A DNA stretch of 64,000 bases, from the NCBI GenBank assembly GCA_020432045.1, contig JAGQHB010000013.1, positions 1 to 64,000 of the forward strand, written 5' to 3'. This document shows, in pieces, positions 11,716 through 54,372 of the stretch. Made by a program: the position numbers and the translations under genes. A model generated the notes under the pieces. That model was not told the DNA's origin, did not search any database, and saw nothing but the letters and a program-made list of their open reading frames with translations. Within the stretch, counting starts at the first letter, position 1. Every line of letters begins with the position of its first letter. Origin of the DNA: Dehalococcoidia bacterium (GTDB taxonomy: Bacteria; Chloroflexota; Dehalococcoidia; Tepidiformales; Tepidiformaceae).

Positions 11716-11930
11716 AACCCTCGCCCCCGCAGGGGGAGAGGACAGGGTGAGGGGTGCTACCCGCCGAAATCCTTGTGCCGCCGCACCCCTCATCCCCGGC
11801 CCTTCTCCCCGTGTCCGGGGCGAAGGGAGAACAGATTGGATCGCTCAGCACCCTCTTCCCCGGCAGGGGGAAAGGGCAGGGTGAGGGGCGCCCCAGCCCA
11901 AATCCTTGCCCCGCGGCGCCCCTCATCCCT
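11716..11930. repeat. Intergenic repeat cluster (same family as 1-232)
   Basis: The 490-bp space before the SDR gene contains alternating blocks of the dispersed family: ACCCTCGCCCCC...GTGAGGGG (11716-11757), CTCATCCCCGG...GGGGCGAAGGGAGA (11787-11830), a second ACCCTC...GTGAGGGGCGCC (11849-11892), and a truncated CCCCTCATCCC (11919-11929). A short AAATCCTTG unit also occurs twice (11767 and 11900). No gene is seen in 11487-11977. Confidence 0.75.
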
Positions 11931-40149: not shown

Positions 40150-40476
40150 ATGCCGGAAGTGATCACAAAGCCCGGGATCGAGATCCTCCAGGACACGGGA
40201 GACCAGCTCGCCGACCGCTTCCACCTCATCCTGCTCGACGACCAGGAGCACACCTACAACTACGTGATCCATATGCTCGGCGACGTCTTCGGCTACTCCC
40301 GCGAAAAGGCCTACGCCATCGCCTGTATGGTCGATGCCCAGGGCGAAGCGATCCTGATGACCGGCGGCCACGAAGAAGTGAAGCTCAAGCAGGACGCCGT
40401 CCATGCCTTCGGCGCCGACCCCCACATGCCCGAAAGCAAGGGCAGCATGTCCGCGGTGATCGAACCCGCGGCGTAA
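40150..40476 (+). CDS. clpS: ATP-dependent Clp protease adaptor ClpS
   Basis: A 108-residue ClpS. The core HLILLDDQEHTYNYVIHMLGDVFG carries the conserved D-D-x-H/T-Y and the hydrophobic N-end-rule pocket, followed by AYAIACMVDAQGEAIL (expected H replaced within the usual M-x-V-D-x-x-G-x-A) and a helix to the end. It delivers N-degron substrates to ClpA/ClpC-ClpP. No clp genes lie nearby. It starts at ATG 40150, divergent from sufE. Confidence 0.93.
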   Translation: MPEVITKPGIEILQDTGDQLADRFHLILLDDQEHTYNYVIHMLGDVFGYSREKAYAIACMVDAQGEAILMTGGHEEVKLKQDAVHAFGADPHMPESKGSMSAVIEPAA

Positions 40477-40484
40477 CATCGACG

Positions 40485-40645
40485 CCCCTCATCCCCGGCC
40501 CATCTCCGCCCGGGAGAAGGGAGCACGTCGTTTCCCGTAGTCGCGGCCGCCCCTGGCCGCGGGACTCTGAACCCCGCCGGGCAACACCACACAATGCAAA
40601 CCCTCTCCCGCGACAGCGTGAGAGCGCAGGGTGAGGGCGCCCCGG
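40485..40645. repeat. Intergenic repeat blocks after clpS
   Basis: The 250-bp gap between clpS and the capsid gene contains CCCCTCATCCCCGGCC...GGGAGAAGGGAG (40486-40522), a 40-bp block (40534-40573) that recurs at 54273-54312 with two differences, and CCCTCTCCC...GGGTGAGGGCGCC (40600-40642). These belong to the dispersed family seen at 1-232 and 11716-11930. No gene is present. Confidence 0.75.
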
Positions 40646-40729
40646 CCCGCATGACGCATAAAGGACGAACGGGAAGGGGACAGGTCCGATGCCCGTCCCC
40701 TTCCCATCTATAGAGCACCCACCACAACC

Positions 40730-41617
40730 CTACGGCCGCACGCCCACCAGCTTCGCCAGCTTCACCGTGTTGAACAGCGCCAGGCTCGCGTACCACTTCA
40801 CGCGGATGCGCGTCGCGTCCTTCGTCTCCAGGCTGCCGACCCGCTCCACCGTCAGCCCGCCCGGCGCCGTCAGCCCCAGCAGGCCGCCTTCGCCCACCTG
40901 CAGCGCAAACACCGTCGTGCAGTCGTCGCTCGTGCCCACCGTCTGGTCGTCGGCGATATAGTCGTTGATGCCGATGGGGATGCCATCGTAGAACTGCAGC
41001 ATCTGGCCAAACTCGTCCCGGTCCGCCTCCAGGAACGTGCCCGTCGTCCGCGCCAGCACGTTTAGCCCACGGCGCGTGCGACGGCTCATCAACAGCAGGT
41101 CCGGCTTCCCGCCCTTCACCGTATCGACCAGCTCGTCGAGCTTCTCCAGCGTTAGCGTCGCGCCGTTCGTGCCCATGCTCACCGTTTGACCGGCCGGGCA
41201 GAGCACGTCGATGCCGTCGAAACTCTTCGCATCGACCGAGTCGTCGCCGTTGACGAACGTGTCATCGAACAGCGACCGCACAGCCCGCGCCTTCAGCTGC
41301 ACGATCGCCGCCTCCAGGTCCTGCACGTTCGAACGCGTCGACTTCAGGAAGTTGTCGATGTCGGCGTCGCCGCCCATCACCTTCAGCGTGGCGGTGATCT
41401 GCGTGAACGTCGGCGTGTCCTCGCTCCAGGTGTCGCCGACGTCGTAGAACGCGGCCGTGGGGGCGACGTTTTCGCGGTTGTAGGTCAGCCCGTTGCCGAC
41501 GATCTCCACGAACGGCAGACGCTGCAGGATCGGGCTTTCCTGGGCGATGGTTTCGACCACGCCCTCGATGAGCGTGTCGTTGCTGAGCTTGCTTGCTTCG
41601 ACGAGCGTGAGCGCCAT
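40730..41617 (-). CDS. Phage-type major capsid protein (HK97-fold like), isolated
   Basis: A 295-residue protein of phage major-capsid type. It has MALTLVEASKLSNDTLIEGV, LPFVEIVGNGLTYNRENVAPTA and VGDTWSEDTPTF (extended N-arm/E-loop-like), then the helical LEAAIVQLKARAVRSLFDDTFVNGD with FDGIDVL, and GIPIGINDYIADD near the C-terminal third. Pattern and length match the coat proteins of tailed phages. A strong GGAGGTG site precedes the ATG at 41617. No portal, protease, scaffold or tail gene is next to it; a methyltransferase gene lies upstream on the same strand. The frame is intact. An encapsulin is less likely, since the encapsulin N-terminal motif is absent. Confidence 0.8.
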   Translation of the reverse strand: MALTLVEASKLSNDTLIEGVVETIAQESPILQRLPFVEIVGNGLTYNRENVAPTAAFYDVGDTWSEDTPTFTQITATLKVMGGDADIDNFLKSTRSNVQDLEAAIVQLKARAVRSLFDDTFVNGDDSVDAKSFDGIDVLCPAGQTVSMGTNGATLTLEKLDELVDTVKGGKPDLLLMSRRTRRGLNVLARTTGTFLEADRDEFGQMLQFYDGIPIGINDYIADDQTVGTSDDCTTVFALQVGEGGLLGLTAPGGLTVERVGSLETKDATRIRVKWYASLALFNTVKLAKLVGVRP

Positions 41618-41675
41618 GGCGGCCACACCTCCGGGATGAGATGCCGCCGATAGTCCCGCGACTTCCCGCGACCAC

Positions 41676-47951: not shown

Positions 47952-49301
47952 ATGGCGGCGAACCCCTCGTCCACTGGTCTCCCGCTCCTGCGCGACTACC
48001 AGGCGAGGACCTTTCTCGCGCTCGCCCGGGGCATCGAGTCTCGTCCCGGCACCACGTTCACCGTCCTTTTTCCGAGACAGGCCGGGAAGAACGAGGTCGC
48101 GGCCACCCTCGTCACATTTCTTCTGCTGACAAACGCGGCCCGCGGTGGCTCCATCGTCGTCTGCGCGCCGACACTCCATCCGCAGGCCGTAATCAGCCGG
48201 GAGCGGACTCTTCGCGCGCTCGCGAACGTTGGCCATCTCCTCCCGGCCGTTGCCAGGCTGCATGTCGCGGACCAGGTCGTTCGCGTCGGCAAAGCATCCG
48301 CCACGTTCCTCAGCGCGTCGCCGGAGGCGCACGTGGCCGGGCACACGGCCTCGCTCGCGCTCATCGCCGACGAAGCACAGGAGATCGACCCCGGCTGGTT
48401 CGACCGGCAGTTCCGCCCGATGGCTGCCTCTGCTGGTGCGCCCACGGTCCTCTTCGGTACCCCGTGGGATGGAGAAACACTCCTCGATCGCGCCGTCTCC
48501 CGCAACCGTGAGCTGGACGCGGACAGCCCGCCGGGTGGACCGCGCCTCCATCACGAGGTCCACTGGCCCGAGGTTGCCAGGGCGAACCCGGCCTACGGCG
48601 ACTATGTCCGGGCCGAGCGTGCTCGGCTTGGCGCTACCCACCCGCTCTTCCTGACGCAATACGCACTGCAAACGGTCGCTGACGCCAGCCGGCTTTTCAG
48701 CGCGGAGGACCTCCTGGCACTCGAAGGCGCGCATCCGCGCGAAGACGCCCCGCGGGCTGGCGAACGTTATGTCGCTGGCCTCGACCTCGGTGGTGAAGGT
48801 CGGGAGAGTGACCGAAGCGTCCTCACCATCGCCCGCATAGATGGCGACGGCATCGCCGTGGTCAGCCACGTCGCCTGGCAGGGCACGCCCATGCGCGAAA
48901 TCGGCGCCGCGGTCGAACTCCTCGCGGGGCACTGGTGCATTGAACGGCTCGTCATCGACGCCACCGGCATCGGTCAGCCGCTCGCCCGCGAACTCGAACG
49001 CGCCCTCGGAGACCGCGTCGAACCGTTCGTCTTCACGGGCCCATCGAAATCGGAGCTTGGCTACTCGCTCCTCGCCGCACTCCGCAGCGGCCGCCTCCGC
49101 CTCTACGCTGACGACGGCTCAGCGGAAGCGCGCGCCTGTCGCGCAGAACTCGACGTCTGCCGGTCACGCTTCCTCGGCCCCGCCCTTCGCTGGGGCGCAC
49201 CACCCGGCGCCCACGACGACTACGTGATCAGCCTCGCGCTCTGCGTGCGGGCAGCCACGTCGTTGCCGGCGCCGCGCGTCGCAGTCGGCAGAAAACGTTA
49301 G
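47952..49301 (+). CDS. Phage terminase large subunit, isolated
   Basis: A 449-residue TerL. The ATPase part has a Walker A-like FPRQAGKNEVAA (about 37-48, in the R-Q-x-G-K-N form common among phage terminases), Walker B LALIADEAQEID (about 136-147) and a motif III-like GTPWDG. The RNase H-like nuclease follows, with its acids in VAGLDLGGEGRESDRS, LVIDATGIG and HDDYVISLAL. Both halves look complete. It normally packages phage DNA with a portal and small subunit, none of which is near. The other phage gene in the window is the capsid gene 6.3 kb away. Confidence 0.88.
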   Translation: MAANPSSTGLPLLRDYQARTFLALARGIESRPGTTFTVLFPRQAGKNEVAATLVTFLLLTNAARGGSIVVCAPTLHPQAVISRERTLRALANVGHLLPAVARLHVADQVVRVGKASATFLSASPEAHVAGHTASLALIADEAQEIDPGWFDRQFRPMAASAGAPTVLFGTPWDGETLLDRAVSRNRELDADSPPGGPRLHHEVHWPEVARANPAYGDYVRAERARLGATHPLFLTQYALQTVADASRLFSAEDLLALEGAHPREDAPRAGERYVAGLDLGGEGRESDRSVLTIARIDGDGIAVVSHVAWQGTPMREIGAAVELLAGHWCIERLVIDATGIGQPLARELERALGDRVEPFVFTGPSKSELGYSLLAALRSGRLRLYADDGSAEARACRAELDVCRSRFLGPALRWGAPPGAHDDYVISLALCVRAATSLPAPRVAVGRKR

Positions 49302-54272: not shown

Positions 54273-54312
54273 CCCGTAGCCGCGGCCGCCCCTGGCCACG
54301 GGACTCTGAACC
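54273..54312. repeat. 40-bp dispersed intergenic repeat, second copy at 40534-40573
   Basis: The 40-bp element (starting CCCGTAGCCGCGGCCGCCCC, ending GACTCTGAACC) occurs here and at 40534-40573 with two differences. It is rich in GGCCGCC palindromic words and lies between convergent or tandem genes in both places. Confidence 0.75.
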
Positions 54313-54372
54313 ATGCCCGGCCTGCATGCGATGGACGCAATGCGCCGCGATCATCGAACGCCCCGGCGTCAC

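Follow-up and report, generated by a model that had tools for sequence, protein, structure and literature searches.

A gene for a phage-type major capsid protein lies intact and alone among host genes in the stretch of Dehalococcoidia DNA analysed here (64,000 nucleotides, hereafter the window), which raises the question of what such a gene is doing there. A preliminary description of the sequence offered three possible explanations (i.e. a decaying prophage, a domesticated particle resembling a gene transfer agent (GTA) and a protein nanocompartment). We weigh these and further explanations by comparing the window with the rest of its genome and with the genomes of relatives.

The capsid gene, its surroundings and its fold

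The features of the window that bear on this question are:

40730..41617, minus strand: gene for a major capsid protein of 295 aa, HK97 fold, epsilon15 gp7-type (phrog_212), from the ORF, profiles and fold model
41627..41632, minus strand: GGAGGT ribosome binding site, 9 nt before the capsid start codon, from reading of the sequence
47952..49301, plus strand: gene for a terminase large subunit (TerL) of 449 aa, phrog_38 and Terminase_6C, with Walker A/B and nuclease residues intact

The translated capsid ORF contains zero stops. Its start is of the MALTL type, as in relatives, and the open frame extends upstream to 41758. The protein matches phrog_212 (PHROGs, E = 1.9e-70), the NCBIfam family NF045672 'MCP_gp7_epsi_15' (E = 9e-59, well above the family cut-off) and Pfam Phage_capsid (E = 6e-10), while a phmmer comparison with PDB sequences returned chance-level matches only. 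The complete coat-like frame with a strong ribosome site, as first described, is therefore borne out. The gene is single-copy in its genome, and its GC3 (0.92) is higher than that of six host genes (0.74–0.87). Its neighbours encode SufE, ClpS, a SAM methyltransferase, a GT2 glycosyltransferase, an NhaA antiporter and a NosD-like beta-helix protein; domain matches agree with the methyltransferase, clpS and glycosyltransferase initially recognized and add further host genes. The terminase reported 6.3 kb away on the opposite strand is confirmed by its matches to phrog_38 (E = 3e-13) and Pfam Terminase_6C, and is also single-copy. No structural or packaging genes were found when ten other ORFs of the window were scanned against PHROGs. 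Thus, the statement that other head and tail genes are missing holds for the window but not for the genome, whose other contigs carry genes for portal, connector and tail.

This genome (3.48 Mb, 115 contigs, 97% complete) contains intact capsid, terminase, portal and connector genes: the first two are on contig C66, the portal gene is on C50 near the contig end, the connector gene is on C91 and the tail gene is on C82. A repeat-bounded insertion divides the tail gene into two ORFs that lie in different frames; relatives have intact copies. The second half of the split gene encodes a LamG (concanavalin-like lectin) domain (L356:3668-4729), which makes the tail-like protein a candidate adhesin. 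Scaffold and helix-turn-helix (HTH) genes were not detected in this 97% complete genome. Because the tail gene is interrupted and these two genes were not found, the system may be on its way out in the window's lineage, unless parts of it fall into assembly gaps; its activity here is uncertain.

Short dispersed repeats (~25–106 bp, 77–96% identical) also occur in this genome (e.g. window positions 40470-40690, 11786-11899 and 54273-54321, and L356:3375-3671). Among these copies, one lies a short way downstream of the capsid gene and another within the tail gene.

AlphaFold models of the capsid protein reached a pLDDT of 33 for the protein alone and a mean of 59 with 24 homologues, which should be enough for calling an HK97 fold, not for detail. 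The best PDB fold matches of this low-confidence model are family 2 encapsulins (E = 1.5e-7), and its top match in the viral library BFVD is a phage capsid (E = 1.7e-10). Sequence searches of Pfam and NCBIfam found no encapsulin family match. The structural comparison proposed in the preliminary description thus recovers the HK97 fold, but fold alone does not separate an encapsulin shell from a phage head; the company that the gene keeps does.

Companion genes and their arrangement in Dehalococcoidia

We surveyed 61 genomes including the window's own; since most are drafts, the absence of a single gene from one of them carries little weight. The capsid gene is present in 40/61, the terminase in 44/61, the portal in 45/61, the connector in 44/61, the putative tail gene in 44/61 and the scaffold-like gene in 38/61, each essentially as a single copy per genome. 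Only G024 contains a second capsid copy, which is distant (31% identical); this copy, like the second copies found in a few other genomes, probably belongs to an ordinary prophage and was put aside. Capsids are 72–86% identical to the window's within its family (80–86% in named relatives, i.e. Dehalococcoidia MAGs and Tepidiforma flava YIM 72310) and 54–78% in other families of the class, with zero in-frame stops across the 40 genomes. The portal and connector match Pfam SPP1_portal and SU10_adaptor and, in the G057 cluster, phrog_64 and phrog_399, respectively.

Across the 61 genomes, the other genes co-occur with the capsid gene (Fisher p 1.4e-4 to 8e-8), and the strongest association is that of connector and tail (Fisher p 2e-10); co-occurrence is weaker within the family alone. 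Lineages with losses show the same dependence. The complete genome G011 lacks the capsid gene, retains a terminase fragment and has a portal gene with two stops. In G049 (complete, 1.5 Mb), a deletion joins mid-portal to mid-tail (L360:6715-11164) and has removed the scaffold, capsid and connector genes; the small-terminase-like (TerS-like) and TerL genes and the flanking genes are kept. Loss of one part alongside decay of the others is as expected for one machine. A conserved four-cysteine HTH protein of ~100 aa is encoded upstream of the portal gene (L359:7879-8151 and homologues) and is a candidate regulator. Its gene occurs in 42/61 genomes, some of which (e.g. G013) lack the other genes of the system, so it may have a wider role.

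These patterns bear on the nanocompartment explanation, by which the capsid protein has been taken over as an encapsulin-like shell, with no part played by the other genes. The HK97 fold, which family 2 encapsulins have in common with this protein, their rank as the closest solved folds and the isolation of the gene among host genes would all fit. Nevertheless, we regard this as highly improbable, because (i) capsid presence tracks terminase, portal, connector and tail; (ii) portal, terminase, connector and scaffold are retained together with the capsid; (iii) no encapsulin family is matched by sequence; and (iv) the fold model is of low confidence and its top viral match is a phage capsid.

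We then compared gene organization. Dehalococcoidia share the order HTH, portal, scaffold, capsid, small genes, connector, small gene, tail and a 70-aa gene, and in many of them the TerS-like and TerL genes lie near this cluster. Outside the window's family the clusters are compact, with a portal-to-tail core of ~6–8 kb. For example, the cluster of G057, from another family, consists of genes for terminase, portal, a coiled-coil scaffold-like protein, capsid, three further proteins, connector, a 668-aa protein and an amidase. PHROGs searches of cluster L070 and of the window ORFs recognized no integrase or replication genes, and the flanks are host genes; the linkage of integrase, regulation and replication genes to head genes that defines a temperate prophage is absent from both. 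The TerS-like gene (~110 aa) precedes TerL in other Dehalococcoidia families, and a homologue was not found in any of the 37 genomes of the window's family. The match of its product to small-terminase profiles is confined to their middle part; in this respect it may resemble the small terminases of GTAs, which have no N-terminal DNA-binding domain (PMC6854486).

By contrast, in the family of Tepidiforma, to which the window belongs, the six genes lie mostly one by one, spread over 200–320 kb. They span 202–243 kb in complete chromosomes of genus g13 (G012, G029 and T. flava G032) and 210–323 kb in G017 and G025, i.e. 202–323 kb in five genomes of three genera. In T. flava, the connector gene lies at 1.100 Mb, the tail and 70-aa genes at 1.112, the scaffold gene at 1.129, the portal gene at 1.221, the capsid gene at 1.340 and the terminase gene at 1.343 Mb. 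This spread is far wider than a phage cluster but tighter than expected if the genes were placed at random (P 5e-6 to 1e-4), which points to a former cluster that has spread out. G042 and G052 are intermediates, with separate small clusters on different contigs. Capsid neighbourhoods are conserved and genus-specific. The search for the same isolated gene in relatives therefore gives a divided answer: it is isolated and scattered within the family, but part of compact clusters elsewhere in the class.

Related small capsid–portal–scaffold–connector clusters also occur in other Chloroflexota classes (L357, L358, L363, L369, L370 and L371), often single-copy and with capsids 43–56% identical; in L358, host-like transporter genes adjoin the capsid cluster. 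Most of the short 'viral' contigs L211–L290 of IMG/VR carry the core cluster of Dehalococcoidia chromosomes and, on this basis, are probably chromosomal fragments. This suggests that some short IMG/VR 'viral contigs' may derive from a chromosomal domesticated system.

Inheritance and selection

Within the family, protein distances follow those of rpoB for the capsid (Mantel r = 0.91, 23 genomes), terminase (0.73, 23 genomes) and portal (0.93, 16 genomes; p = 0.001 each), and the gene trees have 8–12 splits in common with the rpoB tree, against ~0.2 after shuffling. In the three gene trees, a few splits that conflict with rpoB or with each other have strong support; in the capsid tree, such conflicts occur only among other families, not the window's. 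When the capsid tree also includes sequences from nine phages and from other Chloroflexota classes, together with the second copies, the Dehalococcoidia capsids form one clade (support 0.93) with zero phages inside and one other-class sequence (L406). The particle genes thus appear to have been inherited mostly vertically and to have diversified together with their hosts, with some conflicts.

The conflicts with rpoB, and the presence of related capsids in phages (38–42%) and other Chloroflexota classes, would also be expected if related Dehalococcoidia phages had integrated many times and the likeness of the capsids reflected a common phage pool. This is very unlikely, given that there is essentially one copy per genome, distances are congruent with rpoB, neighbourhoods are conserved by genus, no integrase or replication genes were recognized in cluster L070 or the window ORFs scanned, and the Dehalococcoidia capsid clade is free of phages. 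The closest viral capsids (38–42% full-length identity) belong to phrog_212-capsid phages (Mesyanzhinovviridae, e.g. Pseudomonas phage Ab18; and Rhizobium phage RHph_Y2_11), which have full genomes of ~38–280 kb and lie outside this clade.

Capsid dN/dS within genera is 0.01–0.25, with genus medians of 0.09–0.20, compared with medians of 0.13–0.24 for the portal and 0.08–0.12 for rpoB. These ratios point to purifying selection on the capsid and portal close to that on rpoB. The terminase evolves faster than these three (genus medians 0.13–0.62), most of all in genus g13 (median 0.62, up to 0.84), but every homologue that spans the catalytic residues of its ATPase and nuclease has them unchanged.

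On the decaying-prophage view, these genes are what is left of an old infection: rearrangements have broken them apart, and they no longer have a function. Several observations agree with it, i.e. the presence of only a few neighbouring phage genes in the window, the interrupted tail gene and undetected scaffold gene of its genome, the fast-evolving terminase of one genus and the clear decay in G011 and G049. However, the rpoB-like dN/dS of capsid and portal, the stop-free capsid in 40 genomes, the correlated presence of unlinked genes and the invariant terminase residues all speak against it, since neutral relics would not remain intact across the divergence of many genera. We consider this explanation improbable, and for the family it is already largely refuted. 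Relatives yielded no full prophage module at this locus, and capsid dN/dS is well away from the value near 1 that decay would predict. Both results speak against decay of the capsid locus. Decay is real, however, in some relatives (G011 and G049), and the tail and scaffold of the window's own genome may be partly affected.

A gene transfer agent as the probable explanation

Among the explanations first proposed, the GTA-like one agrees best with genes that are single-copy, vertically inherited and under purifying selection, and with a packaging motor, portal, connector and scaffold retained together. We consider it probable that the capsid gene is part of a particle system that Dehalococcoidia derived from a phage long ago and have since passed on vertically, and that this system most likely works as a GTA. 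A more specific proposal, to which we give about even chances, is that this GTA was domesticated early in Chloroflexota and independently of all known GTAs, and that its core head genes became unlinked in one family while under purifying selection; it would then perhaps be the most dispersed GTA known and provide direct genomic evidence for selection on the host lineage.

Such a system would work as follows: (i) in a few cells, the genes would be switched on together, with the four-cysteine HTH protein as the candidate regulator; (ii) a scaffolded head with a short tail would be assembled; (iii) the terminase would fill the head with headfuls of chromosomal DNA; and (iv) the cell would lyse and relatives would take up the DNA. 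A DNA-filled head is predicted from the portal, connector, scaffold and intact packaging motor. A lysis gene was not identified in the family.

Three of the six properties by which GTA viriforms are recognized (PMC9662315) are found here at the level of sequence: (i) genes for particle proteins like those of tailed phages (capsid, terminase, portal, connector and scaffold-like); (ii) endogenized genes at several loci, over 202–243 kb in g13 chromosomes, and no integrase or replication gene in cluster L070; and (iii) mostly vertical inheritance (Mantel r 0.73–0.93 against rpoB within the family), with some conflicts. The remaining properties are a gene set too large to fit whole into one particle, packaging of mostly random host DNA and delivery of that DNA to other cells. 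As to whether one particle could package the whole set, the span of 200–320 kb is far above the likely capacity of a small head, if head size is as assumed. No particle would then carry its own full gene set, and selection would have to act on the host lineage. A self-spreading element needs linked genes; here they have been pulled apart yet conserved, which host-lineage selection explains most readily. The separate chromosomal positions of the genes in this family give the impression that they are maintained by the cell rather than by a virus.

The same packaging head could have been domesticated for another use (e.g. to dispose of or repair DNA, or to kill relatives). The conservation of genes for head and packaging does not in itself show DNA delivery, and the regulator-like HTH gene occurs without the rest; however, the retained portal, connector, terminase and lectin-domain tail-like protein fit delivery to other cells, and we see only a slight chance that such a use is the correct explanation.

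If the system is a GTA, it both resembles and differs from known ones. The RcGTA of Rhodobacter capsulatus (Rhodogtaviriformidae) is encoded at five loci totalling ~20 kb (PMC9662315). Both systems combine head genes and a terminase without replication genes, vertical inheritance and several loci. Unlike RcGTA, the Dehalococcoidia system has, by family comparison, an epsilon15 gp7-type capsid, an SPP1/P22-type portal and an SU10-type connector; long-tail genes are not recognized, the phylum is different and the core head genes are unlinked over 200–320 kb. Known GTAs may also occupy several loci, some with one gene only, but they typically retain a cluster of core structural genes (PMC9662315, PMC11841831). 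Outside Alphaproteobacteria, domesticated phages include Brachygtaviriformidae (VSH-1 of Brachyspira) and Dd1 of Desulfovibrio (PMC9662315); compared by description, they are alike in this respect, and their host phyla are unrelated. We found no description of a Chloroflexota GTA in the open-access literature (subscription papers and preprints were outside this scope), and a paper on Tepidiforma physiology mentions no phage, virus, capsid or particle (PMC10284905).

It is still debated what hosts gain from retaining GTAs (PMC11841831). For its study, lineages that are losing or have lost the system (e.g. G011, G013, G036 and G049) offer natural controls, and cultured hosts are available (Tepidiforma). 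A GTA in these bacteria would add a phylum to the GTA map and would be relevant to how genes are exchanged in Dehalococcoidia, to which the organohalide-respiring Dehalococcoides also belongs.
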